18,061 nt of DNA from a bacterium (GTDB taxonomy: Bacteria > Campylobacterota > Campylobacteria > Campylobacterales > Sulfurimonadaceae), in assembly GCA_018824795.1 (NCBI GenBank), contig JAHJFL010000039.1, forward strand, positions 1-18,061. Reading direction: 5' to 3'. Position 1 is the first letter of the stretch. Each line of letters opens with the position of its first letter. The notes beneath the pieces are model-generated. The model worked only from the letters and a program-made list of their open reading frames with translations. It was not told where the DNA came from and did not search any database. Of this stretch, positions 6,195 through 18,061 are shown one piece after another. The translations under genes and the position numbers were made by a program.

Positions 6195-7234
6195 TAGAGG
6201 TTAAACGCAGAGTTTTTGAGAATATTCTCTACAATATCCTGATAATATTTTTTCTGTTCAGTGTTACCTAATGAAACAGGTGGCTCGCCTTTATCTGAAC
6301 CTTCACGGATTTGCATGTCGAGTGGAATGGCTCCAAGGAATGGAATGTCATATTTGGCCGCAATTTTTTCTCCGCCGCCTGTTCCAAAAATATCATAACG
6401 GTTTTTTGTGTCTGGAGCGATGAAAAAGCTCATGTTTTCAACAATTCCTGCCATTTTTACGCCAATATCTTTAAACATCATGACAGCACGGCTTACATCG
6501 TCTGTTGCTACTAACTGAGGTGTTGTAACTAAAACAGCCGCTGCTATTGGCAACTCTTGGGCAATTGTCAGTTGCACATCGCCCGTTCCCGGAGGCATGT
6601 CTATAACCATAAAATCAAGCTCGCCCCATGCTACGTCTTCCAAAAATTGAATTAATGCATTGACAGCAACCGAACTTCTCCAGACAAGCGGTGTGTCTTG
6701 TGTTGGTGTCGTAAGTGCAACACTCATGATTTTTATGCCGTAATTTTCAGCGGGGATGATTTTATCATCATCATTCCACTGAATTCTTTCTATGTCTGTA
6801 TTAGTCAGCCTAGGAATATTTGGACCATAAACATCGGCATCGAGTATGCCTACTTTATAGCCTTTTTGCGCCAGTGCAATTGCAATATTAACACTTACTG
6901 TACTTTTTCCAACGCCGCCTTTTCCGCTTGTGACAGCTATAATATTTTTAGCATAGGGGGCACGATTATTGGGAGCGGCAGAATTTCCGTAATTCATATC
7001 TTTTTTTGCCAGATTCTTTTTGGTAATATTAAGGCGTTCAAATTTATCTGAAAAATTATCTTCTATAAGCTTTTTGACATTTAAGTAAGATTCATCACTG
7101 ATGGTGAGAAGCTCAATATTTGCAATATTCGCTGTTACTTTTATTTCACCCAAGAGTTTGAGTTCACCAATGCTTCTGTCTACTCCAGGGTATTTTAAAG
7201 TATTTAGTGCAGTTTTTAAATCGTTACTATTCAT
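6194..7234 (-). CDS. mrp: Mrp/ApbC-family P-loop ATPase (Nbp35/MRP type) without cysteines
   Basis: Mrp/ApbC proteins bind and hydrolyse ATP and act as Fe-S cluster carriers. The 346-residue protein has an N-terminal MIP18/DUF59 domain (about 1-75) and a P-loop domain with deviant Walker A 'SGKGGVGKS' (103-111), 'LDADVYGPNIPR' and 'IDMPPGTGDVQLT'. The loop that holds CxxC in many Mrp proteins reads 'FFIAPDTKNRY' (271-281), and I find no Cys anywhere in the chain. The start at ATG 7234 is chosen because AAGGAA (7241-7246) lies six bases upstream and residue 1 then begins the MIP18 domain; a longer form from 7318 would mostly overlap the upstream gene. The start overlaps the upstream gene's stop by eight bases. 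Family call is secure; cluster binding is doubtful. Confidence 0.93.
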   Translation of the reverse strand: MNSNDLKTALNTLKYPGVDRSIGELKLLGEIKVTANIANIELLTISDESYLNVKKLIEDNFSDKFERLNITKKNLAKKDMNYGNSAAPNNRAPYAKNIIAVTSGKGGVGKSTVSVNIAIALAQKGYKVGILDADVYGPNIPRLTNTDIERIQWNDDDKIIPAENYGIKIMSVALTTPTQDTPLVWRSSVAVNALIQFLEDVAWGELDFMVIDMPPGTGDVQLTIAQELPIAAAVLVTTPQLVATDDVSRAVMMFKDIGVKMAGIVENMSFFIAPDTKNRYDIFGTGGGEKIAAKYDIPFLGAIPLDMQIREGSDKGEPPVSLGNTEQKKYYQDIVENILKNSAFNL

Positions 7235-7598
7235 ATGGATTTCCTTTAACTTCTCTTGCAAGTAAAGATGCTGTAGAATTTGCTTTTTGGGCAAGTTTAG
7301 CAAGTTCCGACGCAGCACCCGGATAGTCTTTACTCAAAGTATGATAGGCTGCAACTCTCTCTTGTATAAGAGTATTTAAAAGCTGTGTAGTCTGTCCAAG
7401 TGTTCCATTGGCATCACTTTTATTTAAAAGTTCTTTTATAAGAAGTTCTCTTGAATTCATACTCATTGCAATATCTACTTTTTTACCTATATTTATAAAC
7501 TCTTTCGCATTAATGTAGATACCAGAGAAAAAAGTATTTAAAAATTGATTTTCTAAGGCGGTAAATCTGCTTTTTATACTTCCATGTTTATGTTTCAT
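7227..7598 (-). CDS. Conserved hypothetical protein, 123 aa, helical
   Basis: No family is recognised. The protein is 123 residues, without signal peptide, membrane segment or cysteine, and appears all-helical. It opens with a basic stretch ('MKHKHGSIKSRF') and then amphipathic helices such as 'GQTTQLLNTLIQERVAAYHTLS' and 'AASELAKLAQKANSTASLLARE'. ATG overlaps the stop of the upstream LRV gene (ATGA, four bases), with GAGAG upstream as a ribosome-binding site. Its own stop overlaps the mrp start by eight bases. The three genes are therefore one translationally coupled unit and may act together, but what this one does is unknown. Confidence 0.75.
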   Translation of the reverse strand: MKHKHGSIKSRFTALENQFLNTFFSGIYINAKEFINIGKKVDIAMSMNSRELLIKELLNKSDANGTLGQTTQLLNTLIQERVAAYHTLSKDYPGAASELAKLAQKANSTASLLAREVKGNPYE

Positions 7599-8200
7599 GC
7601 TCTGCTCTCTAGGTTTGCTTGTGCTGCCATGGCAACATTTGTATCTTTATCTTCTGTGAGCTCATTTAAAATTTCTTTAGGAGCATTTTTGTTTTCAGCA
7701 AGTCTCATTCTGACCATTTTATCGGCATCATTCGCTAAAATTTTCAATATCTTAACAGGGGTGTTAGGATTGCCTGAAAGACCATCTCTAACTATTTTTT
7801 CATCACTGAAAAATTTTTCTAAAACGGCTGGAGAAGTTTTTGGGTTTGTAGCCACAAGAGCACGCACCAAGTTTACCTCGTCTTTTGCAAGTTGTGAAAG
7901 AACATCCTCTGGAGTATGAGGATTTTTGGCAACTGCCCATCGTGCTCCCATATCTGCTGTATTCTGAGCTAAATCACGGAGCAACTCCACGATGGTTTCA
8001 CTGTATTCTAGTTCTCTGTCATAGACGGAAGTTCTTAAACTAAGGTTCATTGCAACCTGCCCGACAATTTCTTTATGGTCTTTAAACGGGTAATAAATTG
8101 CTTTGACCATTTCAATGTCGAGCGCTTTGTCTTCAAGTAAATCTATGATTTTTGCTTCATCTCTATTCTGGATAATATTTTTTAAATCGATATTTGACAC
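7595..8200 (-). CDS. LRV-type (leucine-rich repeat variant) helical repeat protein
   Basis: The 201-residue protein ends in four repeats beginning NPHTPEDVL (93), NPKTSPAVL (119), NPNTPVKIL (144) and NKNAPKEIL (170), spaced 25-26 residues apart. Each has the form N-P-x-T-P-x-x-x-L-x-x-L-A-x-D-x-x-x-x-V-R, the pattern of LRV repeats described from an Azotobacter vinelandii protein. That protein has a Cys-liganded [4Fe-4S] domain before the repeats; here the N-terminal ~90 residues contain no Cys. Such repeats usually bind proteins. The start is GTG at 8200, seven bases after AGG in AGTAGGTACAC; no better in-frame ATG lies nearby. It leads the operon with the 123-aa protein and Mrp, so a role as an Mrp partner is possible but inferred. 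Confidence 0.75.
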   Translation of the reverse strand: MSNIDLKNIIQNRDEAKIIDLLEDKALDIEMVKAIYYPFKDHKEIVGQVAMNLSLRTSVYDRELEYSETIVELLRDLAQNTADMGARWAVAKNPHTPEDVLSQLAKDEVNLVRALVATNPKTSPAVLEKFFSDEKIVRDGLSGNPNTPVKILKILANDADKMVRMRLAENKNAPKEILNELTEDKDTNVAMAAQANLESRA

Positions 8201-8529: not shown

Positions 8530-9672
8530 ATGAATAAAATGTTAAAGACATTAGTTTTTGCAGCAACATTGACGTTTACCCCGCTTATGGCATCTGATGA
8601 TTATGCAAATAAGGATATTCTTATTTCTGCTGAAGAAGCTATGAGTTTAATTGGTAAAAAAGACGTAATGTTTGTTTCAGGTGATAGTGATGATGTATAT
8701 AAATTAGGACATATTAAAGGTTCTGTTGAAATGTATGCACACCATTTACATCATTCTGATATTACTGGAGATATGCATTGTGCACCACTCTATCGTTGTG
8801 TGGATGATGCTGAGGCATATATTGGTTCAAAAGGAATAGATAATAATACTATGATTATTGCTTATGACGATTTTAAAGGACCAAATGCTACTGGCGTTTA
8901 TTCTTTTTTCACTAGTTATGGACATAAAAATGTAAAAGTTTTAAATGGTGGACGTTCTGCAATGATGGCTATTGACCCGGCACAGATTAAATATGACGGA
9001 CTCAAAGATAAAATCAAAGATATTAAAGATGCCGCTAAACCAGCTAAAAATAAACTCAAAGATGCTAAAAAAGGCACAATTACTTTAACTGCTGCTGAAA
9101 AAGCAGAACTTGAAGCGATTATGAAAAAAGCTTCAGATGATGAAAAAAGTTTAAAAGCTGAAATGGATGCACTTGAAAAAGATTTGATTGTTGTTAAAGG
9201 TGAAGAAAAAGTTGAGCCTAAAACATATAAAGTTGATACAAAAAACATTAATTTAACTAACATAGCAGCAAAAGAAGAAGTGGCGCATGCAATGGAAGAT
9301 ATCCTTAAAAACGGAAAAAATTCTAAGTATGTGATTATTGATTCACGCGGTATGGCTGAGATTATTGGTGAGAGAAAAATGGATAATGTTGCTCGCGGAG
9401 GACACGTTCCAGGTTCAATTTTTATGGAATGGAATAAAATTTCTGATCTTGAAAATAGAAAATCTTTTAAATCCGCAAAAGAGTTACAAGATTTATATAC
9501 TAAATATGGTGTAACAAAAGATAAAACTATTTATGCATACTGCATGGTTGGTGCTGGACGTGGTTCTGAGCATATTACAGCGCTTCAACTTCTTGGCTAT
9601 AAAAATATTAAAGTTTTCACAGGTAGCTGGGACGTTTGGGGTAATGATATGAATTTACCACTAAAAAGATAA
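8530..9672 (+). CDS. Secreted tandem-domain rhodanese (sulfurtransferase family) with Lys-rich linker
   Basis: Rhodaneses move sulfane sulfur from a donor to an acceptor through a Cys persulfide. The 380-residue protein has a Sec signal peptide (cut near LMA-SDD, about residue 21). Domain 1 (about 28-148) ends in 'VKVLNGG' but has Asp, not Cys, at the active position ('AYDDFKG', ~112), as usual for the inactive half of two-domain enzymes. Domain 2 (about 245-378) has 'GGHVPGS', active C338 in 'YCMVGAGRGS', and 'TGSWDVWGN'. Between them lies an unusual ~85-residue Lys/Asp/Glu-rich, partly coiled-coil insert (150-235). The active loop is C338-x5-R344, one residue longer than the usual Cx4R. AGAAGGAG lies five bases before ATG. 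It is the first gene of the Mo-enzyme operon, 16 nt before the catalytic subunit. Confidence 0.88.
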   Translation: MNKMLKTLVFAATLTFTPLMASDDYANKDILISAEEAMSLIGKKDVMFVSGDSDDVYKLGHIKGSVEMYAHHLHHSDITGDMHCAPLYRCVDDAEAYIGSKGIDNNTMIIAYDDFKGPNATGVYSFFTSYGHKNVKVLNGGRSAMMAIDPAQIKYDGLKDKIKDIKDAAKPAKNKLKDAKKGTITLTAAEKAELEAIMKKASDDEKSLKAEMDALEKDLIVVKGEEKVEPKTYKVDTKNINLTNIAAKEEVAHAMEDILKNGKNSKYVIIDSRGMAEIIGERKMDNVARGGHVPGSIFMEWNKISDLENRKSFKSAKELQDLYTKYGVTKDKTIYAYCMVGAGRGSEHITALQLLGYKNIKVFTGSWDVWGNDMNLPLKR

Positions 9673-9688
9673 GGGAGAGGTTTAAAAT

Positions 9689-12589
9689 ATGACAAAAGTT
9701 ATGAATAATAAGCGTAGAAACTTCCTTAAAGTTTCTGGGATGACTGCAGCACTCGTTGCTTCTCAAGGTAGTCTCTTTGCAAAAACAAATGCGTTAAGTG
9801 TTGAGAATGGAAAGAACGATTATCCAAACACGAACTACACGGAAAATATGTACAGAAATGAATTTTCTTTTACGTATGGTAAAAAAGAAGAGCATGGTTT
9901 TGCTTACCACTGTGTAAACTGTCAAGGTAACTGTGCTTGGGAAGTATGGTCTCATAATGGTGTTATCACTCGTGAAAATCAATCTGCTCGTTATCCAGTA
10001 ATCAATGCAAAAATCCCTGACTTCAACCCTCGTGGTTGTAACAAAGGTGTTCAGCATTCACAAGTAATGTATCAAAAAGATAGAATTCTTTATCCAATGA
10101 TCCGTACAGGTGAGCGTGGTGAAGGTAAATGGAAACGTGCTAGCTGGGATGAAGCTGCTGAAAAAATCTGCCAAAATATTTTTGATACTTTAACAGATCC
10201 AAAACGCGGTCCAGATAAGTTGATGGTTCATGCGGGTACAGGTCTCTTAACTGAAGGTCGTCGTGGTTCAGTACTACGTTTTTCTACTCAGTTGGGTGCT
10301 AACCGTATTTATCCGTCTTCTTACCTAGGAGATATGTTCTCTGGTGCTGCTATTGCTTATGGTGAGGGTAACCTTGGATGTACTTGGGATTTTATGTACA
10401 CAGTAGATACTGCTGTTATGTGGGGTGGTAATCCATCTGTTTCACGTATTCCAGATGCTCACTTCGTGTGGGAAGGTAAATATAATGGTGCGAAAATCAT
10501 CGTAATTACTCCTGAGTTTAATGCAACTGCAAAGTCTGCTGACCTTTGGATTCCTATTAAAGCGGGTTCAGATAATATCTTAGCAATGAGCGTTATCTAC
10601 ACTATCTTAGATCAAAAAATGTATAAACCGGAATTTATGAAGCTTTATACTGACTTGCCATTTTTAGTTGATACAAAAACTCAAAAAATGATTCGTCGTA
10701 ACGATATGGAACATACTGAAAATAAAGAAGACCACCATGCATGGGGTGAACAGTTCTATTGTATGAATACAACAGACTCTAAGCCATATTTAATGCCTGG
10801 TACAGAAACACATGAAAATAAATCACTGCGTTTACCTGCTGATGTAAAGCCAGCTCTTGAAGGTACGTTTACAATTACTGATGTTCATGGTCATAAGCGT
10901 GAAGTTACAACTGTATTTGAAATGTTGAAAAAATCTGCTGCAAAATTTGCTCCAGAAGTTACAAAAGATATTACAGGTGTTCACCCAGAGACTGTTGTTC
11001 AATTAGCAAAAGACATAGCTCTTCCAAAAGTTGTTGAAATCACTACTGGTTTCTCATTGAACAAGTACTTCAATGGTATGATGACAATCTGGAATGTTGC
11101 TTCAATTTGTGGTTTAACAGGAAGAATGGGACCATACGGTGGTTTAAATACTGAAAATGAGTTCCAACTTTCAGGTCTTGGTGCTTTATCAGGGTTTAGC
11201 GGTAAATATGCGCCTCGTTTTGGTTCAGGATTTGTTGGTGAATTTATGAACGGTAACGGCATGAAAACATTCGACAAGTACTTTAATGACGAAGATGTAA
11301 AACGTGCACAAAACGGCATGAGTAAAAAAGAGTATATGGCAGTTCTAAGTGAAATGCTTGAAGCTGGTAAGAATGGCGGAGCTAATAAAGAGAGCAAACA
11401 TGGTAATGTTGTAAAACCTTGGTGGTTACCAACAACAGCACTAATCGTAGCTGACTCTACTTTCAGACGTAACAAGGGTAGTGAATATCGTAAAGCATTC
11501 TTAGGCAGAATGGACTTTTATGCTTATGTAGATTACAGAATGAGTGAAGCGGCACAATATGCTGATGTACTTCTTCCTGCAAAATCTCACTATGAAGTAT
11601 ACGATTTACGTACATCTCCGGGTTACCACCGTTTTACAAACTTGGCACAACCTGTTGCTAACATTAAAAATGTTGGTGAGGCTATGGATGAGTGGAGTAT
11701 GTTTACACTTTTAGCGAAAAAACTAGAAGAGATAGCAAACCGTCCTCAAAATATAGCAAAAGCTAAAGTTAAAGATGAAGTTCGTTATGCTAAACCAGGT
11801 TTCCATGACCTTACAATTTTTCATAAAGAGTATACAAATACGGATGAAGAGTCAGAAGGTGAAGGTGAAGTTTATTTAGGTACAGACAAAATGGCTGTTC
11901 AGGCTGCGCTTGAGAAGTGTGATCAGTACCAACCATGGACTATGGAAAAAATGTATAAAATGGGTGGTTTCTTGCTTATTAATGATAAGGCAGCAAAATC
12001 GTCTCCTTTATATTCTGATAAGCCATACTCGTCAATGGAAAATCATCTTTACAAATTTGAAAGACTTGATACGGTGTCTGGCCGTCAAACTTTCTATGTT
12101 GACCATGATATGTACATTAGAATGGGTGCAGCGACAAATACTGGTATGGAAGGAATCCGTCCACAACGTAAAGAATATCCTTACGTATTGATGACTCCTC
12201 ACGCGAGATGGTCAATTCACTCGAACTACAAAACATCTCGTACATTATTGCGTTTACAGCGTGGTGTACCTGCAATGCAACTGAATCGTGTGGTAGCTGC
12301 TGCAAAAGGCATTAAAGATGGAGATACAATCCGTATTTTCAATAATCTTGGTGAATTCTTTGCAATGGCAAAATTAAGTTCTTCTGCACCGGCTGATGGT
12401 CTTGTAATGGAACATGGATGGGAACCGTACATGTATAAATTCAACAAGGGTCATAATGAAGTTGTGCCTACTTCTCTTAACTTATTAGAGATGGCAGATG
12501 GTTGGGGTCACCTAAAATTCGGTGGTCTGTGGGATGGTAATCAGTACGCATATGATGGCGCTGTTAACTACGAAAAAGCAAAAGTTTAA
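9689..12589 (+). CDS. Tat-exported molybdopterin (bis-PGD) catalytic alpha subunit, type II DMSO reductase family
   Basis: This 966-residue protein is the catalytic subunit of a periplasmic Mo (or W) enzyme. A twin-arginine signal, 'NKRRNFLKVSG' (7-17) with a hydrophobic stretch to about 31, marks folded export. The FS0 [4Fe-4S] ligands are H74, C78, C82 and C117, that is H-x3-C-x3-C-x34-C, the same spacing as in NarG. D215 in 'YLGDMFSG' is the likely Asp ligand to Mo. The C-terminal cofactor domain includes 'MTPHARWSIHSNYKTSRTLL'-type residues near 835-855. Length is near ethylbenzene dehydrogenase alpha (about 976) rather than NarG (about 1247). GGGAGAGG sits eight bases upstream. With the following genes it forms an alpha-beta-gamma complex. 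Reaction and substrate are unknown; candidates are DMS, selenate, chlorate, hydrocarbons or inorganic sulfur. CGT is common for Arg, unlike the housekeeping genes nearby. Confidence 0.9.
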   Translation: MTKVMNNKRRNFLKVSGMTAALVASQGSLFAKTNALSVENGKNDYPNTNYTENMYRNEFSFTYGKKEEHGFAYHCVNCQGNCAWEVWSHNGVITRENQSARYPVINAKIPDFNPRGCNKGVQHSQVMYQKDRILYPMIRTGERGEGKWKRASWDEAAEKICQNIFDTLTDPKRGPDKLMVHAGTGLLTEGRRGSVLRFSTQLGANRIYPSSYLGDMFSGAAIAYGEGNLGCTWDFMYTVDTAVMWGGNPSVSRIPDAHFVWEGKYNGAKIIVITPEFNATAKSADLWIPIKAGSDNILAMSVIYTILDQKMYKPEFMKLYTDLPFLVDTKTQKMIRRNDMEHTENKEDHHAWGEQFYCMNTTDSKPYLMPGTETHENKSLRLPADVKPALEGTFTITDVHGHKREVTTVFEMLKKSAAKFAPEVTKDITGVHPETVVQLAKDIALPKVVEITTGFSLNKYFNGMMTIWNVASICGLTGRMGPYGGLNTENEFQLSGLGALSGFSGKYAPRFGSGFVGEFMNGNGMKTFDKYFNDEDVKRAQNGMSKKEYMAVLSEMLEAGKNGGANKESKHGNVVKPWWLPTTALIVADSTFRRNKGSEYRKAFLGRMDFYAYVDYRMSEAAQYADVLLPAKSHYEVYDLRTSPGYHRFTNLAQPVANIKNVGEAMDEWSMFTLLAKKLEEIANRPQNIAKAKVKDEVRYAKPGFHDLTIFHKEYTNTDEESEGEGEVYLGTDKMAVQAALEKCDQYQPWTMEKMYKMGGFLLINDKAAKSSPLYSDKPYSSMENHLYKFERLDTVSGRQTFYVDHDMYIRMGAATNTGMEGIRPQRKEYPYVLMTPHARWSIHSNYKTSRTLLRLQRGVPAMQLNRVVAAAKGIKDGDTIRIFNNLGEFFAMAKLSSSAPADGLVMEHGWEPYMYKFNKGHNEVVPTSLNLLEMADGWGHLKFGGLWDGNQYAYDGAVNYEKAKV

Positions 12590-12598
12590 GGAGCATAG

Positions 12599-13726
12599 AT
12601 GTCAAAAAGACAATTAGCAATGGTTATGGACCTGAACAAATGTATCGGGTGCCAAACATGTACAGTTGCATGTAAAACTCAGTGGACAAATAGAAATGGC
12701 CGTGAGTATATGTACTGGAATAATGTTGAAACTTATCCAGGTACTGGTTATCCAAAAAATTGGATGGAGTTAGGCGGTGGTTTTGATGCTGCTGGCGACT
12801 TACAACCAGGTGTTATTCCAAATCTTGAAGCAGACTATGGTGTGCCTTGGGATTATAACTATGATGCACTACAAGGTGGAGCATCGTTTGAGCCGAATGT
12901 AGAGCCTACATGGGGACCAAACTGGGATGAAGATGAAGGTGCTGGTGTTTTCCCACAAGATAACTACTTCTTCTACTTACCTCGTATTTGTAATCACTGT
13001 ACAAATCCGGGTTGTTTAAGTGCGTGTCCTCGTGATGCAATCTTCAAACGTGAGCAAGATGGTGTTGTTTTAGTTGACTTAGACAGATGTCAAGGTTACC
13101 GTTATTGTATAGCGGGATGTCCTTACAAAAAAATCTATTTCAATCCAAAAATCTCGAAATCTGAGAAATGTATTCTATGTTTCCCAAGAATTGAGCAAGG
13201 TCTTCCACCAGCGTGTGCACAACAGTGTGTTGGACGTATTCGTTTCGTTGGATTCTTAGATGATGAAGAAGGTCAAGTACACAAATTAGTAAACAAATAT
13301 AAAGTAGCAATCGGTCTTAGAACAGACTATGGCACTCAACCAAATGTTTATTATGTACCACCAACCGAATCACCGGCAAAATTTGATGCTGATGGTAAAA
13401 TTATTGAAGGTTCAACTCGTCTTCCAATTGAAGAGTTAGAAAAATTATTTGGTCCAGAAGTTCATGGAGCAATTAAAACTCTTAAAGCTGAAATGAAAAA
13501 ACGTAAAGAGACTGGAGAGAGTGAATTGATGGATATCTTAATTGCATACCAACATTCAGATATGTTCCGTCTTGACAATAACTATTACAACCAAGTTGCA
13601 AAAGAGAATGGCCAACATCCTTTAGCACCTGTTGATACTCGTTATATAGCTGGTAAACATACAAAAACTGGCCATGAAATGAAGTTTTTTCATGGTGGAG
13701 ACATTAAAGCAGGAGGACACCATTAA
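12599..13726 (+). CDS. Four-cluster Fe-S electron-transfer beta subunit (NarH/DdhB/EbdB/SerB type)
   Basis: The 375-residue subunit passes electrons between the Mo subunit and heme b. It has no signal peptide and presumably crosses the membrane with alpha. Four Cys groups are visible: C15/C18/C21/C25; C131/C134/C139/C143; C164/C170/C174; and C191/C194/C206/C210. In the third group Tyr167 replaces a Cys ('CQGYRYCIAGCP'), where NarH has Trp; this predicts one [3Fe-4S] and three [4Fe-4S] clusters, as in other type II enzymes. The region 30-125, rich in Trp, Tyr and Gly, is the typical insert between groups I and II. AAGGAG lies five bases before ATG. It starts nine bases after alpha ends, and its stop overlaps the gamma start by one base. 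Confidence 0.93.
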   Translation: MSKRQLAMVMDLNKCIGCQTCTVACKTQWTNRNGREYMYWNNVETYPGTGYPKNWMELGGGFDAAGDLQPGVIPNLEADYGVPWDYNYDALQGGASFEPNVEPTWGPNWDEDEGAGVFPQDNYFFYLPRICNHCTNPGCLSACPRDAIFKREQDGVVLVDLDRCQGYRYCIAGCPYKKIYFNPKISKSEKCILCFPRIEQGLPPACAQQCVGRIRFVGFLDDEEGQVHKLVNKYKVAIGLRTDYGTQPNVYYVPPTESPAKFDADGKIIEGSTRLPIEELEKLFGPEVHGAIKTLKAEMKKRKETGESELMDILIAYQHSDMFRLDNNYYNQVAKENGQHPLAPVDTRYIAGKHTKTGHEMKFFHGGDIKAGGHH

Positions 13727-14922
13727 TGAAAAAATTAACTAGTACATTATTAGCAGCAGCTACTATTGCTTCGGCATTAGCAGCAGATTCTGCAATAAAT
13801 GCTCTTAAAGTTTCAGGTAGTCTTGATAAAGTTACTAATACATCAGCTATTTGGAAGGGTGCAAAGTTTTCTGCTGTAACTTTGTATCCGCAAACTACTA
13901 TTGAAATGAACGATAAAAAAGCAAATGAATTAAATGCAAACCCTAAAGCTGTTAAAGCAGAAGTAGCGGCTGTATATAATAAAGATAAAATTGCATTTTT
14001 AATCAAATGGCCTGATGGAACAAAGAATGTTCAAGAGAGTGGTAAAACTGACACATACGGTGATGGTTTTGCGGTTCAATTTGCAAGCAACTACTCAAAT
14101 CCAGCAGAACTTCCATACATTGGTATGGGTTCTGAGGGGCGTCAAGCAGTTATTCACTTACAAAAAGAGACAGCTAAAACTTATGAGCCAAATGGAAATG
14201 GTGATGTTGGAAGCCAAGTAAATCCAAATCAAACAGATTTGTTTAATAAAGATTTAAAAGCATTTAATAAAACTGTAGATGCCTTAGGCAATGCTGATTA
14301 TGAAAAATCATATGTTGGAGAAGGTTTCCGTTCAATGACAGAAATCAAAGACGGCAGTAACCATTCTACTTCTAATATGACGTATACTAAAAAAGCTTGG
14401 GCAGGAACTTTATCTCGTCCACTTAAAGATGAATATGTTGATTTAAATGCTGCTGCTATTCCCGTTGCATTTGCCGTATGGGATGGAGAAAAAATGGGCC
14501 GTAATGGTCTTAAATATCTTACTCAATGGACAGCAGTTGTTCTTAAAAAAGGTGACGACAAATTAGTAAATGCTCTTCATGGTAAAATTGAAGGTGATGC
14601 TGCTAAGGGTAAAGAGTCAGCTGTAGCTAACGGTTGTACAGGTTGTCACCAAATGGAGAAAACAGAGGCTGCTAACCTAATGGGACCATCATTAACTAAC
14701 ATTGGTGGTTATGCTACTGTTGATTATTTAAGAGAGTCTTTGGTAAAACCATCTGCGGTTGTTGTTCCAGGGTATAACAGAAATGCTCACAGCAACTATG
14801 CATGGTATAACATTCAAGATGGAAAAAGAGTATCTACGATGCCTGATCACAGTTGGATGGAAAAAGCTGACATTGATAATATCGTGGCATATCTTAAAAC
14901 TTTAAAAGCGGAGGCTAAATAA
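13726..14922 (+). CDS. Gamma subunit: ethylbenzene-dehydrogenase-type heme b domain fused to a monoheme cytochrome c
   Basis: The 398-residue protein has a Sec signal peptide (cut near ALA-AD, about residue 20). Residues ~35-275 fit the EB_dh heme-b fold of EbdC/DdhC/SerC: 'PYIGMGSEGRQAVIHL' offers M134 as one axial ligand, and 'GLKYLTQWTAVVL' offers K263 as the other, by analogy with the Met/Lys pair in EbdC. Residues ~280-398 form a cytochrome c domain with CxxCH (C304, C307, H308) and M372 in 'STMPDHSW' as the probable sixth ligand. Known EbdC-like subunits are only the b domain, so this is a b-c fusion. It overlaps beta by one base (TAATG) and the next gene by one base. It should take electrons to or from soluble periplasmic carriers. 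Confidence 0.85.
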   Translation: MKKLTSTLLAAATIASALAADSAINALKVSGSLDKVTNTSAIWKGAKFSAVTLYPQTTIEMNDKKANELNANPKAVKAEVAAVYNKDKIAFLIKWPDGTKNVQESGKTDTYGDGFAVQFASNYSNPAELPYIGMGSEGRQAVIHLQKETAKTYEPNGNGDVGSQVNPNQTDLFNKDLKAFNKTVDALGNADYEKSYVGEGFRSMTEIKDGSNHSTSNMTYTKKAWAGTLSRPLKDEYVDLNAAAIPVAFAVWDGEKMGRNGLKYLTQWTAVVLKKGDDKLVNALHGKIEGDAAKGKESAVANGCTGCHQMEKTEAANLMGPSLTNIGGYATVDYLRESLVKPSAVVVPGYNRNAHSNYAWYNIQDGKRVSTMPDHSWMEKADIDNIVAYLKTLKAEAK

Positions 14923-15347
14923 TGAAAAATATTAATTTAATCTCTTCAGCATTGGTAATGTGTGCAGTTTTTGCACTCAATGCTTTTGCTTCTGAATTAA
15001 CTCCTATTGAGAAATCAGGTTTTTTAACAACAAGCGGATGTGCTGCTCAAGGCGCATTCAGAGATTGTTATTTAGAAAATTATTCATGTGGAAGTGATGG
15101 TTGTTTTGAAACAGCTGTAGCTGGAGAAGCTGCAAAAGATGTACAGGTTGTATTATTCTCACATAACGATGGGATTACTTACAAGCTTGATCTTAAGGCA
15201 GTAAATCTGTCTAATGTTGACAAAAGTATTAATCGCAATGAGGTAACTGTAATAGGTAATTACAATGCGGATACAAATACTATTTCTGCAACAGAAATAA
15301 AACCACCACCACCACCAACAAAGTCGTTCTTCAAAGGTTGTCTATAA
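14922..15347 (+). CDS. Small secreted Cys-rich protein with proline-tract tail ending Gly-Cys-Leu
   Basis: No family is recognised. The 141-residue protein has a Sec signal peptide (cut near AFA-SE, about residue 24). Four Cys cluster early in the mature part (C40, C49, C56, C61, within 'GCAAQGAFRDCYLENYSCGS'), then a beta-rich middle ('VQVVLFSHNDGITYKLDL', 'NEVTVIGNYN'), then five prolines (128-132) and a short tail 'TKSFFKGCL' with C140 next to the end. The pairing of a flexible Pro-rich arm with a near-terminal Cys recalls the SoxY carrier tail, although the motif is not the same. The four inner Cys may form disulfides or bind metal. It overlaps the gamma gene by one base, so it is probably made in proportion to the enzyme. 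A carrier or accessory subunit is inferred. Confidence 0.75.
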   Translation: MKNINLISSALVMCAVFALNAFASELTPIEKSGFLTTSGCAAQGAFRDCYLENYSCGSDGCFETAVAGEAAKDVQVVLFSHNDGITYKLDLKAVNLSNVDKSINRNEVTVIGNYNADTNTISATEIKPPPPPTKSFFKGCL

Positions 15348-15371
15348 TCTTAAAGCCTTATGGCTTTAAGA
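15348..15371 (+). terminator. Strong hairpin after the Cys-tail gene
   Basis: TCTTAAAGCC, loop TTAT, GGCTTTAAGA is a perfect ten-pair stem beginning at the base after the stop codon. The U-rich stretch (GTGTTTTTCTT) comes only about 12 bases after the stem, so it may be a partial terminator or an RNA end that protects the upstream operon mRNA, letting the chaperone genes be expressed at a lower level. Confidence 0.6.
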
Positions 15372-15427
15372 GACAATCTAGGTGTTTTTCTTATAACTTC
15401 TTCTAAGTGCTTCTAAATAAGTGAAAT

Positions 15428-15459
15428 TATGATAAAAACTCCTATCAATCCTATATAAA
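15428..15459 (+). promoter_or_regulatory. Candidate promoter elements for the torD-like/ferredoxin pair
   Basis: TATGAT (15428-15433) and TATAAA (15454-15459) precede ATG 15475. If the first is the -10, transcription starts near 15440. No clear -35 is visible, and the ribosome-binding site (GGA at 15463-15465) is weak, consistent with low expression of chaperone genes. Confidence 0.35.
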
Positions 15460-15474
15460 ACTGGAATATTATTT

Positions 15475-16050
15475 ATGAACAAAGAGTACAGACTCTATAT
15501 TTACGCATTTTTATCGAGAACTATGACAAGTACAGTCGATAAAAGATTTATTAAAGATTTAAGAGAAAATAAAGATTTATTGGAAATTTTAGGTGAAGAA
15601 ACTACAAACTATTTTAATGAAAATAGTGATGAATTTCTTTTAGATGCGCTTAATGAAGACTTCTCTTCTATGTTTGTAATTAATACTCAAGCCGTTGAAT
15701 CTTTTGTACTTGATGCTAAAAATGAGACATTAGTAGGACTTCAAAATCCTGTTATGAACTTTTATTACTCACATGGCTTTGAGCTTAATATGGATCAAAC
15801 AGAGTTAATGGCTCCAGATCATCTATCAATAGAACTTGCATTTATGCAAACATTAATTTTCAGAGATGAAAAGAAGCCACAGTTAGAGTTTTTACAAGAA
15901 CATCTTATGAAATGGGTTGTGCCCTACATGATTGGCATGAAGAGTATGTCGTTGACTCCTTTTTACAAAGATTTGTGTGATTTTATAGTTGAATTTATTG
16001 TGGCAGATTTTGAGTATTGTTCTTCACTAGTAGAGAGTGCTCATGAGTAA
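15475..16050 (+). CDS. TorD/DmsD-family molybdoenzyme maturation chaperone
   Basis: TorD-family proteins bind the Tat signal and apo form of a dedicated Mo enzyme in the cytoplasm, holding it until cofactor insertion. The 191-residue, all-helical protein has the family signature 'APDHLSIELAFM' (about 113-124), preceded by 'NPVMNFYYSHG' and the acidic helix 'LNEDFSSMF'. No signal or membrane segment is present. Its position directly after the only Mo enzyme in the window makes the alpha subunit at 9689 the likely client. It overlaps the following ferredoxin by eight bases. The ribosome-binding site is weak. Family call is good; client is inferred. Confidence 0.88.
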   Translation: MNKEYRLYIYAFLSRTMTSTVDKRFIKDLRENKDLLEILGEETTNYFNENSDEFLLDALNEDFSSMFVINTQAVESFVLDAKNETLVGLQNPVMNFYYSHGFELNMDQTELMAPDHLSIELAFMQTLIFRDEKKPQLEFLQEHLMKWVVPYMIGMKSMSLTPFYKDLCDFIVEFIVADFEYCSSLVESAHE

Positions 16051-17128
16051 TATAAATTTTATTCAAAAATCTGAACTTTTTACCTATAGCGGAACAAATT
16101 GTATAAGAAATGATTATTATCATAATGATTGTCAACTATGTGTCGAAATCTGTCCTGAAAATGCTTTTCATATTGTAAGAAATAAGATGACACTTTTTTC
16201 AAATGAGTGTATAGAATGTGCTGCTTGTATAGGAAGTTGTCCGACTGAAGCACTTAGCATTATTAGTTTTGATCCAAATGCTTATACTGCAAGTTTTAAA
16301 GAGAATGAAGAGAAGCTTCTTTCATGTAAAAAAACTACGAGTTGTTTAGGAGCTTTTGATGCACACCATTACAGTGCTATGGCCCTTCAAAGTGCTGAAG
16401 GACCTCTTTGTGATTTGTCACACTGTGCTGATTGTGCTCTCAATAAAGACAAAAAGGTAGAAGAATTTATAAGATTTGAGATAGATAAAGCAAATAATTT
16501 TTTACAGGCATGCGGAGTTGAAAATTCTCTTTCGATTAGAGAAGAAAAACCGGAAGAAAATGCAAAACGTATGCTCTTTAAATCAGCTTTTGCAAAAGTG
16601 AAAAATGCAGCTACTGAAAGTGAAGTAAAAGCTCTCTCTATGACTCAGGCCTACCAGAAAAATAATCCTGGAGTTGTTCCATTGAAGTTTTTGCAGTTTA
16701 AAAATGCAATAAAAGAGAATATATCAAAAATTTCAAAAACAACACATAATACAGGTTTTGGTCTCTTTACAAAGAAAGAAATTTCCTTTACTGAGTGTAC
16801 AAATTGTGGAGATTGCAGTCAGTTTTGTCCAACAGGCGCATTGATTACTACAAGCAATAAGCAGGGGATTAACTTTAATGTAGGAAACTGTATATCTTGC
16901 GGTATATGTAACGACATTTGTAAAACAGATGCTATTAAAGATATTGATGCTATTGATTTAGTTGATTTTGCTTATGACCGCGGTGTTGAGTTAGTTTATT
17001 ATGAGATGGTTATGTGTCATGAATGCAGATGCCCTTATCCATATCGCGGAGGAGACCCGATCTGTCATAGATGTGCAGATTTTAAAGTTGACTTTAGTCA
17101 TGTGTTTACAATGGAAAAAGACCTTTAA
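16043..17128 (+). CDS. Cytoplasmic polyferredoxin with at least four [4Fe-4S] motifs and a C-terminal Cys knuckle
   Basis: The 361-residue protein has no signal peptide. Cys groups are C20/C30/C33/C37; C56/C59/C62/C66; C252/C255/C258/C262; and C283/C286/C289/C293, the last three being classic CxxCxxCxxxC ferredoxin motifs. A middle set (C95, C101, C123, C128, C131) and a C-terminal set (C325, C328, C330, C341, C344; 'CHECRC' then 'CHRC') may hold further clusters or zinc. ATG 16043 is preferred over GTG 16037 because GAGAG (16033-16037) lies five bases before it. It overlaps torD by eight bases, so the pair is coupled. By analogy with NapF beside NapA, it may serve Mo-enzyme maturation in the cytoplasm rather than respiration; this is inference. 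Confidence 0.85.
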   Translation: MSNINFIQKSELFTYSGTNCIRNDYYHNDCQLCVEICPENAFHIVRNKMTLFSNECIECAACIGSCPTEALSIISFDPNAYTASFKENEEKLLSCKKTTSCLGAFDAHHYSAMALQSAEGPLCDLSHCADCALNKDKKVEEFIRFEIDKANNFLQACGVENSLSIREEKPEENAKRMLFKSAFAKVKNAATESEVKALSMTQAYQKNNPGVVPLKFLQFKNAIKENISKISKTTHNTGFGLFTKKEISFTECTNCGDCSQFCPTGALITTSNKQGINFNVGNCISCGICNDICKTDAIKDIDAIDLVDFAYDRGVELVYYEMVMCHECRCPYPYRGGDPICHRCADFKVDFSHVFTMEKDL

Positions 17129-17191: not shown

Positions 17192-18061
17192 TTACTTCTC
17201 TTTTTTATCCATAGCATCTTTGGCTGATTTTATAGCACTGCTTAGCGCTGTTTTAGCTACGCTAAAAGCTTGTTTTCCCATTCGCTTAGCCTCTTGAGCC
17301 TTTTGAGAGTTTAAAGCAGAGTCCGCACTCTTCACTGCTTTTTTAGCAAAGCTGGAGAATTTATCTTTCATGACATCTGCTGTCTCTTTTGAGAGATGTA
17401 CTAATTCATCTAAGTCATAGCGCATATTCTTATTTGTTTCAATTAAAATTGTTCTGCTGTTTTGAGAATATTGTGACGCCTGAGTTATGATTACTTGTGA
17501 GAAGAGAGTATCTGTTTGGTTTAAATCTTCTATAATAGTGTCATAATCTTCTATGAGAATATGCTTCGCTTCCACAGGCATAAACGCAAGTCTCTTTTTA
17601 AATCTGTCAATGGCTTTAAAAAGACCGCTTCTCATACCTCTCAGCGTTGCGGGGAGTATTTCATCCGCTCTATTTGGAGTCGCCTCAGCAACTTCTATTG
17701 CAGACTGAAGAATGGTAGATAGTATTTTTCTAATTCTTATAGTGTTGAGAGAACCCTCTTTAATGGCTTCAAAAGTTATATCTTTGATAACTTCTTGGAT
17801 AGTCTCTTTTATATCACCATCCTTCTCTTTCTCAAGCGCACTGATAACTGCTGACTCAACAAGTTCACTTAAAAAATCGAAAAGATCAATAGATTGGAGT
17901 TTAATTTGATGGAGTTTTAGTAAAGCTTCGTCCTGATTAACAAGCTTGGCTTCTATTGCATTAAAAACACTGTACTTAGACTCTTGTAGCTCTTCTGATT
18001 TTTTTTCTAATTTTCTTTCCAGTTGCTCTTTTTGTGCTAAAAGCACTTCAAGTTCATCATG
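17192..18061 (-). CDS. Helical coiled-coil protein of unknown function (5' end outside window)
   Basis: I do not recognise a characterised family. The frame is open from the window edge; a GTG at 18046 gives 284 residues, but the codons upstream of it (HDELE...) continue the same heptad-like helix, so the true start is probably beyond 18061. The visible part starts with a charged coiled coil ('QKEQLERKLEKKSEELQ'), then a long helical middle with 'DIKETIQEVIKDITFEAIKEGSLNTIRI' type helices and 'LRGMRSGLFKAIDRFKK', and ends in a Lys/Ala-rich tail ('AKTALSSAIKSAKDAMDKKEK') that looks like phasin- or apolipoprotein-type amphipathic helices. There is no Cys, signal peptide or membrane segment. It converges on the ferredoxin gene and has no clear link to it. 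Confidence 0.7.
   Translation of the reverse strand, partial: HDELEVLLAQKEQLERKLEKKSEELQESKYSVFNAIEAKLVNQDEALLKLHQIKLQSIDLFDFLSELVESAVISALEKEKDGDIKETIQEVIKDITFEAIKEGSLNTIRIRKILSTILQSAIEVAEATPNRADEILPATLRGMRSGLFKAIDRFKKRLAFMPVEAKHILIEDYDTIIEDLNQTDTLFSQVIITQASQYSQNSRTILIETNKNMRYDLDELVHLSKETADVMKDKFSSFAKKAVKSADSALNSQKAQEAKRMGKQAFSVAKTALSSAIKSAKDAMDKKEK

Follow-up and report, generated by a model that had tools for sequence, protein, structure and literature searches.

Several described systems each share a part with a gene cluster that we analysed in an 18,061-nucleotide stretch of DNA (hereafter the window; contig JAHJFL010000039.1 of assembly GCA_018824795.1) from a bacterium of the Sulfurimonadaceae, Campylobacterota, in which genes of a molybdenum (Mo) enzyme lie together with those of a tandem rhodanese and of a small protein with a penultimate cysteine, termed here the Cys-tail protein. 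Dimethylsulfide (DMS) dehydrogenase, DdhABDC, is a periplasmic, cytochrome-c-linked enzyme that oxidises a sulfur atom and consists of alpha, beta and heme-b-containing gamma subunits served by a TorD-like chaperone. In the Sox system, SoxC is a sulfite-oxidase-type protein, unlike the alpha subunit of the cluster, and SoxY is a swinging-arm sulfur carrier, as is DsrC, which bears a penultimate Cys on its C-terminal arm like the Cys-tail protein, but which works in the cytoplasm, for DsrAB and DsrMK. Sud of Wolinella is a periplasmic rhodanese feeding a Mo enzyme, PsrABC, as we propose for the cluster, but Sud has a single rhodanese domain, PsrABC has a quinone-linked membrane subunit, and no Cys-tail protein is known to go with them.

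The operon is noted once in print, in Thiovulum, as a nitrate reductase, namely, as narGH with a rhodanese (PMC9938260). By its description this is almost surely the same operon, and one of the loci studied here (L035) comes from the same genome; in that paper's account of the operon, the small gene is left unannotated and the arrangement is not generalised. The word "undescribed," applied to the system in a sequence-only reading of the window, is therefore too strong. Campylobacterota with a truncated or absent Sox system have been inferred to stop at elemental sulfur (S0), according to statements in PMC12403661 and PMC4288042.

On balance, the cluster probably encodes a cytochrome-c-linked, Sox-independent periplasmic sulfane dehydrogenase taking the place of SoxCD. 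An enzyme of this kind would jointly account for the rhodanese, the arm of the Cys-tail protein, the kinship of the alpha subunit, the type of the gamma subunit, and the distribution of SoxC. The chances are about even for a fuller version, in which a dedicated rhodanese loads the penultimate-Cys arm of an OB-fold protein that in turn feeds sulfane sulfur to a Mo enzyme of the dimethyl sulfoxide (DMSO) reductase type, and in which this modular arrangement repeatedly replaced SoxCD across Campylobacterota (seven out of nine independent contrasts, see below) and works without Sox as well, forming a third feeding route. If the system takes the oxidation to completion, too little sulfate production has so far been ascribed to such bacteria of vents, caves and aquifers, and what at least one genome paper (PMC9938260) calls narGH codes for a sulfur enzyme. 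This reading offers a testable answer, with a cultured type strain at hand, to the question of how sulfane sulfur is oxidised without SoxCD.

Gene Content and Conservation of the Cluster

Seven open reading frames (ORFs) occupy positions 8530-17128 on one strand, overlapping or leaving at most 127 bases between neighbours. Pfam and NCBIfam scans assign them, in order, to a tandem rhodanese, alpha, beta, gamma, the Cys-tail protein, a TorD/NarJ-type chaperone and a polyferredoxin, in agreement with the seven consecutive genes of the sequence-only reading. Its limits for the cluster were too narrow, however, as the unit is larger than seven genes and includes two divergent genes upstream, for an LRV repeat protein and for a small protein, u123; signal peptides were assigned by eye.

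7227-7598, minus strand: u123, small helical protein, cluster-linked copy (carrier-built profile A5)
7595-8200, minus strand: LRV repeat protein, divergent (PF01816/PF25591)
8530-9672, plus strand: exported tandem rhodanese (two rhodanese domains, active-site Cys338)
9689-12589, plus strand: alpha, Tat-exported molybdopterin catalytic subunit (TIGR03479 below cut-off, invariant residues, tree)
12599-13726, plus strand: beta, 4Fe-4S electron transfer subunit (TIGR03478 over cut-off)
13726-14922, plus strand: gamma, fusion of EB_dh (heme b) and cytochrome c (PF09459 and PF00034 over cut-off)
14922-15347, plus strand: Cys-tail protein, seemingly exported, predicted OB fold, Pro-rich linker, C-terminal FFKGCL (conserved tail, model)
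15475-16050, plus strand: TorD/NarJ-type chaperone (PF02613 37.5 bits, over cut-off)
16037-17128, plus strand: polyferredoxin (Fer4 domains)

Conservation was scored in the best 80 of 147 confirmed genome loci (alpha identity 66-95%). Of these, 77 carry the label of a Campylobacterota lineage, and the other three are named no more closely than "bacterium" or "Proteobacteria". A gene was counted on a tblastn match at E 1e-3, and only where the contig had room. Next to alpha, the rhodanese was found in 69/69 loci, beta in 71/71, gamma in 66/66, the Cys-tail protein in 63/63, TorD in 58/62 and the polyferredoxin in 49/55, and the full set in 45 of the 50 loci whose contigs could hold all seven genes. 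This co-conservation is far above chance expectation, and the expectation that the genes stay together, with the rhodanese and the Cys-tail protein beside close homologues of alpha, is borne out. In the protein search, 903 of the 7898 candidates were alphas with E values no higher than 1e-100; the best 120 of them, with identities of at least 70%, were listed.

The phylum of S. arcachonense was surveyed in 397 genomes. The alpha profile matched 54 of them at 1e-60; 53 hold members of the family (hereafter carriers), and the remaining one, G295, holds a PcrA, as judged from the alpha tree. The profile of the Cys-tail protein hit exactly these 53 genomes and none of the 344 others. Alpha is fragmented in four of the 53 carriers, and in a fifth it contains a stop codon.

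Alpha is in two pieces with an apparent frameshift in G036 (L117), G041 and G149, where the Cys-tail match is kept, apparently through decay or sequencing error. In G254 (L115, 6510-11629), six pieces of alpha and three of beta lie about 120-210 bases apart, with parts of them inside one long open frame; these may be insertions or assembly trouble.

Distribution Relative to the Sox System

SoxC was called by TIGR04555 over its cut-off (93/397 genomes), and SoxY by PF13501 at 1e-10 (118/397). SoxC occurs in three out of 53 carriers vs. 90 out of 344 non-carriers (Fisher 4e-4). The cluster is carried by 24 out of 26 genomes with SoxY and without SoxC, by three out of 92 with both, by 26 out of 278 with neither, and by none (0/1) with SoxC alone; the Fisher values are 1e-19 within the SoxY set and 1e-19 within the SoxC-less set, both without tree correction. 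Thus, a truncated Sox system is nearly always accompanied by the gene set.

For a contrast test, a FastTree phylogeny was made of rpoB from the 118 SoxY genomes. On it, carrier status changes nine times and SoxC ten times, Pagel's test gives a likelihood ratio of 36.6 (p 2e-7), and nine disjoint pairs show exclusion in seven cases, SoxC on both sides in two, and the reverse in none. If the cluster encodes a sulfane dehydrogenase, it resembles SoxCD/SoxYZ in that a Mo enzyme acts on the C-terminal Cys of a carrier, and the two systems seldom share a genome. Among the 27 SoxY-positive carriers, five have SoxY no more than 20 kb away from alpha. In G034, SoxX, Y, Z, A and B all pass the NCBIfam cut-offs, and in G138, SoxY, SoxZ and SoxA-type domains are present.

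Rhodanese and Cys-Tail Protein

The rhodanese follows the plan of a two-domain thiosulfate/mercaptopyruvate sulfurtransferase, with the active Cys338 in the second domain and a helical hairpin joining the two; the active Cys and the loop C-[HQM]-V-G-[AT]-G-R are kept in 72/72 copies. The N-terminal domain, which is without an active Cys, has a conserved AHHLHH stretch (window 8737-8799) and C84 and C90, which suggests a metal site or a disulfide.

The Cys-tail protein is 141 amino acids long, with Cys140 as the penultimate residue, and looks exported; with a strict pattern, a lipobox-like start was seen in five out of 66 copies. It has no Pfam or NCBIfam match at 1e-3, and hence none to SoxY (PF13501/TIGR04488) or DsrC profiles. 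All 66 complete copies, including that of the window, end in GCL, and FFKGCL ends 117 out of 118 database proteins, again with the window's own included, while P0198 extends four residues beyond. Three Cys, C40, C49 and C140, are the same in all 51 aligned copies. The AlphaFold2 model (mean predicted local distance difference test score, pLDDT, 79; predicted template modelling score, pTM, 0.65; core blocks 90-95) has the element order E-H-(H)-E-E-H-E-E and no secondary structure past residue 127. VIA rows in the fold comparison were mostly OB folds, and an OB fold is accordingly the predicted one.

The protein has a C-terminal arm with a conserved Cys, and the Pro-rich linker before it is consistent with a swinging-arm plan and with a candidate sulfur carrier, the arm logic being similar to that of SoxY and DsrC, whose profiles are absent. 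It might instead act as a chaperone for a cofactor or for heme, or be a structural subunit that stays in place, so that the link to sulfur would come from the rhodanese alone or be misleading. The OB folds listed include CcmE and SilF, and two Cys of the body, C40 and C49, are as invariant as the tail Cys, as such a role would allow; a near-invariant penultimate Cys behind a Pro-rich linker and the strict pairing with the rhodanese speak against it, and we regard it as improbable.

Alpha Subunit

Residues R9, R10, H74, C75, C78, C82, C117, D215 and K459 of alpha are invariant in 78/78 complete copies. R9 and R10 are the twin Arg of the twin-arginine translocation (Tat) signal; H74, C78, C82, C117 and D215 align with stretches of NarG, PcrA and EbdA, and K459 with the lysine of EbdA GFSSAKSYHG. 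We take Asp215 to be the Mo ligand position, and H74, C78, C82 and C117 to be the ligands of the FS0 motif. Alpha carries the Mo-ligand-type Asp and the His/Cys FS0 motif of type II of the DMSO reductase family. Position 181 is His in 68/78 and Gln in 10/78 copies. Among the type II NCBIfam models, that of beta is passed (TIGR03478, 510.9 bits vs. cut-off 480.7), and those of alpha (TIGR03479, 724.4 vs. 984.75), gamma (86 vs. 170) and the chaperone (38 vs. 152) are not reached.

The alpha tree comprised 46 rows, including the window and 15 family members (out of 78 complete ones), with partial PcrA, EbdA and NarG sequences, and the program flagged long branches for EbdA, NarG and pNar. The family forms one clade (100/100, stem 1.17). 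Its sister (fork 99/96) comprises 15 proteins, including P0334 of Rhodovulum sulfidophilum, presumably DdhA, and others named dimethylsulfide dehydrogenase; this label rests on loose source names and P0334, several chlorate-reductase-like proteins being named alike. ClrA comes next, and NarG, PcrA and pNar are distant. Identity over aligned columns is 37-40% with DdhA-type proteins, 33-36% with the ClrA type, 32% with PcrA, 31% with NarG (498 columns), 30% with pNar, and 28% with EbdA. Alpha thus falls, as anticipated, outside the sampled clades of known substrate, namely, NarG, PcrA, ClrA, EbdA and the named DMS dehydrogenases; no labelled SerA is in the tree, though one may be hidden among the unnamed proteins.

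Several assignments of alpha were rejected: to the DdhA clade, since the family lies outside it, as a sister on its own stem (100/100); to NarGHI (TIGR01580 230.9 of 1084 bits, clade apart from NarG); to perchlorate or chlorate reductase (apart from the PcrA and ClrA clades); and to the SoxC family (TIGR04555 absent from its 25 NCBIfam matches). A chlorite dismutase domain was not found by Pfam among the ten window proteins scanned, in line with the sequence-only reading, which took this absence to argue against (per)chlorate. In G295, a PcrA lies with beta and a chlorite dismutase (PF06778, 84.9 bits) on the same contig (L110, 2466-12452), with a TorD-like ORF, a small cytochrome and transposase-like ORFs around, these labels being given by eye.

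Some database and paper names imply a nitrate or other oxyanion reductase, e.g., "nitrate reductase / nitrite oxidoreductase, alpha subunit" at JGI, and narGH in PMC9938260. This is very improbable, because the alpha clade is separate from NarG, PcrA and ClrA, the F[YF]DWY-x-D motif of NarG, PcrA and haloarchaeal pNar is replaced by YP[SA]SYLGD in 16 family rows, and TIGR01580 has a match at 1e-30 in none of 31 carriers. Moreover, of the acceptors tabulated for the carrier S. arcachonense (L048), O2 and S0 are positive, whereas nitrate, nitrite, arsenate, DMSO and thiosulfate are negative (PMC11406935, Table 1, where selenate is not among the compounds tested).

The kinship of alpha with proteins named DMS dehydrogenase is also what one would see if the same parts oxidised a different substrate, i.e., thiosulfate, sulfite, or a methylated or organic sulfide, with the rhodanese and the Cys-tail protein used for delivery or product removal. 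Thiosulfate is, besides, commonly used by rhodaneses. Nevertheless, a protein carrier would be needless for DMS, and we know of no rhodanese or Cys-tail protein with DdhABC (nor, to our knowledge, does DdhABDC have a cytochrome c fusion, LRV or u123); the SoxC pattern indicates sulfane sulfur; and sulfite may be dealt with by another protein, since 19 out of the 54 alpha-matched genomes also have a sub-cut-off SoxC/SorA-like match. We consider a different substrate unlikely.

Beta and Gamma Subunits and the Direction of Electron Flow

Fifteen Cys of beta are invariant in 72/72 copies, and M134, K147, K263, C304, C307 and H308 of gamma in 67/67. M134, K147 and K263 align with Met/Lys of EbdC, and the first and last of these three align with NxrC as well. 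The profile of gamma hits 2ivf_C (EbdC) at 2.4e-13 and 7b04_C (NxrC) at 6.6e-13, whereas alpha scores only 120.9 bits against NxrA. With the SoxX model, whose cut-off is 61, the cytochrome c part reaches 30.4.

Heme b, Met/Lys-ligated in both enzymes, has potentials of +256 mV in ethylbenzene dehydrogenase and +324 mV in DMS dehydrogenase (PMC8840923, Table 1). As the Met/Lys pattern is kept, gamma would be too high-potential for S0 reduction. The sequence-only reading left it open whether the enzyme feeds periplasmic cytochromes or draws on them; the involvement of cytochromes is retained, and the evidence favours oxidation over reduction. The opposite arrangement, in which cytochrome c supplies the electrons for reducing polysulfide or S0 brought by the rhodanese and the Cys-tail protein, has a model in Sud with Psr, a rhodanese and Mo-enzyme pair from the same phylum. 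The role of Sud is cited in PMC7952632, and both S. arcachonense and Nitrosophilus alvini respire S0 (PMC11406935; PMC7728183). Such a reductase is nevertheless a rather improbable explanation, given the high-potential type of gamma, and it would leave the SoxC pattern without a reason.

Proposed Mechanism and Carrier Organisms

The gene set, its co-occurrence and conservation, the clade and the SoxC pattern were observed here; from them, we infer every transfer and redox step of the sulfane dehydrogenase as follows. Cys338 of the rhodanese would pick up sulfane sulfur from thiosulfate, from polysulfide or S0, or from SoxY-bound sulfur left by SoxB, and would hand it over to Cys140 of the Cys-tail protein, which would reach into the alpha funnel with an arm hinged at prolines. 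There, a Mo centre with an Asp ligand, similar to the one in dimethylsulfide dehydrogenase, would oxygenate the bound sulfur stepwise with water-derived oxygen. The electrons, relayed by Fe-S clusters, would arrive at the b- and c-type hemes of gamma, from which periplasmic cytochrome c would carry them to an oxidase or a denitrification enzyme. The product would be a Cys-bound S-sulfonate, freed as sulfite or sulfate, via SoxB where present. We take TorD, the polyferredoxin, LRV and u123 to serve in maturation.

Cultured or named carriers include S. arcachonense DSM 9755, N. alvini (P0088, G062), N. kaiyonis (P0110, G261), which reportedly, as a title has it, oxidises sulfur and thiosulfate, and Ca. 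Thiovulum stygium (L035). Another carrier, G365, is Sulfuricurvum kujiense DSM 16994, as 6000 bases of its 118,585-base plasmid are 100% identical to NC_014754; SoxX, Y, A and B are over cut-off in it, a SoxZ-like frame was seen, and SoxC over cut-off was not found. Its donors are given as sulfide, S0, thiosulfate or H2 (PMC4288042). In Ca. T. stygium, neither sox genes nor a sulfite dehydrogenase were found by the authors' own search (PMC9938260), and our survey (G005) gave no SoxY match; the same paper puts the rhodanese of the nar operon at about five-fold over its other pair. An enzyme for a sulfur compound, as proposed in the sequence-only reading, is backed in its sulfane sulfur form by the SoxC pattern, S. 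kujiense, S. arcachonense and Thiovulum, and fits N. alvini poorly.

Several points weigh against a sulfane dehydrogenase that replaces SoxCD. Three out of 27 SoxY-positive carriers also hold SoxC, and 26 out of 53 carriers are without SoxY. The SoxY frame depends on SoxC, since SoxY in SoxC genomes may derive from a soxCDYZ cluster; the Pagel rates are partly at their bounds, the tree is of a single gene, and the pairing was greedy. Many of the surveyed genomes are metagenome-assembled, with completeness not stated. The tail of the Cys-tail protein is modelled as not strongly disordered (mean pLDDT 71 for residues 131-140, and 48 for residue 141). SoxCD from a metagenome was assigned to Sulfuricurvum, although the Sulfuricurvum bin has only BAXYZ (PMC4288042), and the table of donors tested for S. 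arcachonense contains no sulfur compound (PMC11406935). Finally, H2 is the sole donor described for N. alvini, with S0 and thiosulfate among its acceptors (PMC7728183); this speaks against sulfur oxidation as a basis of growth in this organism.

Accessory and Neighbouring Genes

LRV and u123 were tested in 32 out of 53 carriers and in 32 out of 344 non-carriers, the latter all SoxC-bearing and non-random. LRV was found at E 1e-15 in 27/32 of these carriers vs. 0/32 non-carriers, the carriers missed being G001 (S. arcachonense), G002 (Sulfurospirillum sp. SCADC), G150, G232 and G251; it lies divergently upstream in 43 out of 57 fetched loci with room. The u123 protein has no Pfam or NCBIfam match. 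Its profile A5, made from carriers only and hence biased toward them, matches all 32 carriers with at least 81.4 bits (adjoining alpha on the same contig in 31, on a different contig in G213), vs. a weaker, paralogue-like match (at most 79.5 bits) in 21/32 non-carriers and none in 11/32.

LRV is a probable maturation or assembly factor, and the polyferredoxin, with 24 Cys invariant in 54/54 copies, may be a maturation or electron protein. The chaperone has PRK04976 and TIGR03482 matches, both under cut-off. Upstream, mrp comes next after LRV and u123. On the 3' side, a DUF6781 gene (window 17192-18046, minus strand) follows the cluster in close relatives, with weak matches (28-35%) in a few distant relatives and absence in many. 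In a haloarchaeal type II Mo operon on a Haloferax larsenii plasmid (L089, 11514-11956), a HEAT-repeat gene lies two genes past TorD, and is a possible parallel to LRV.

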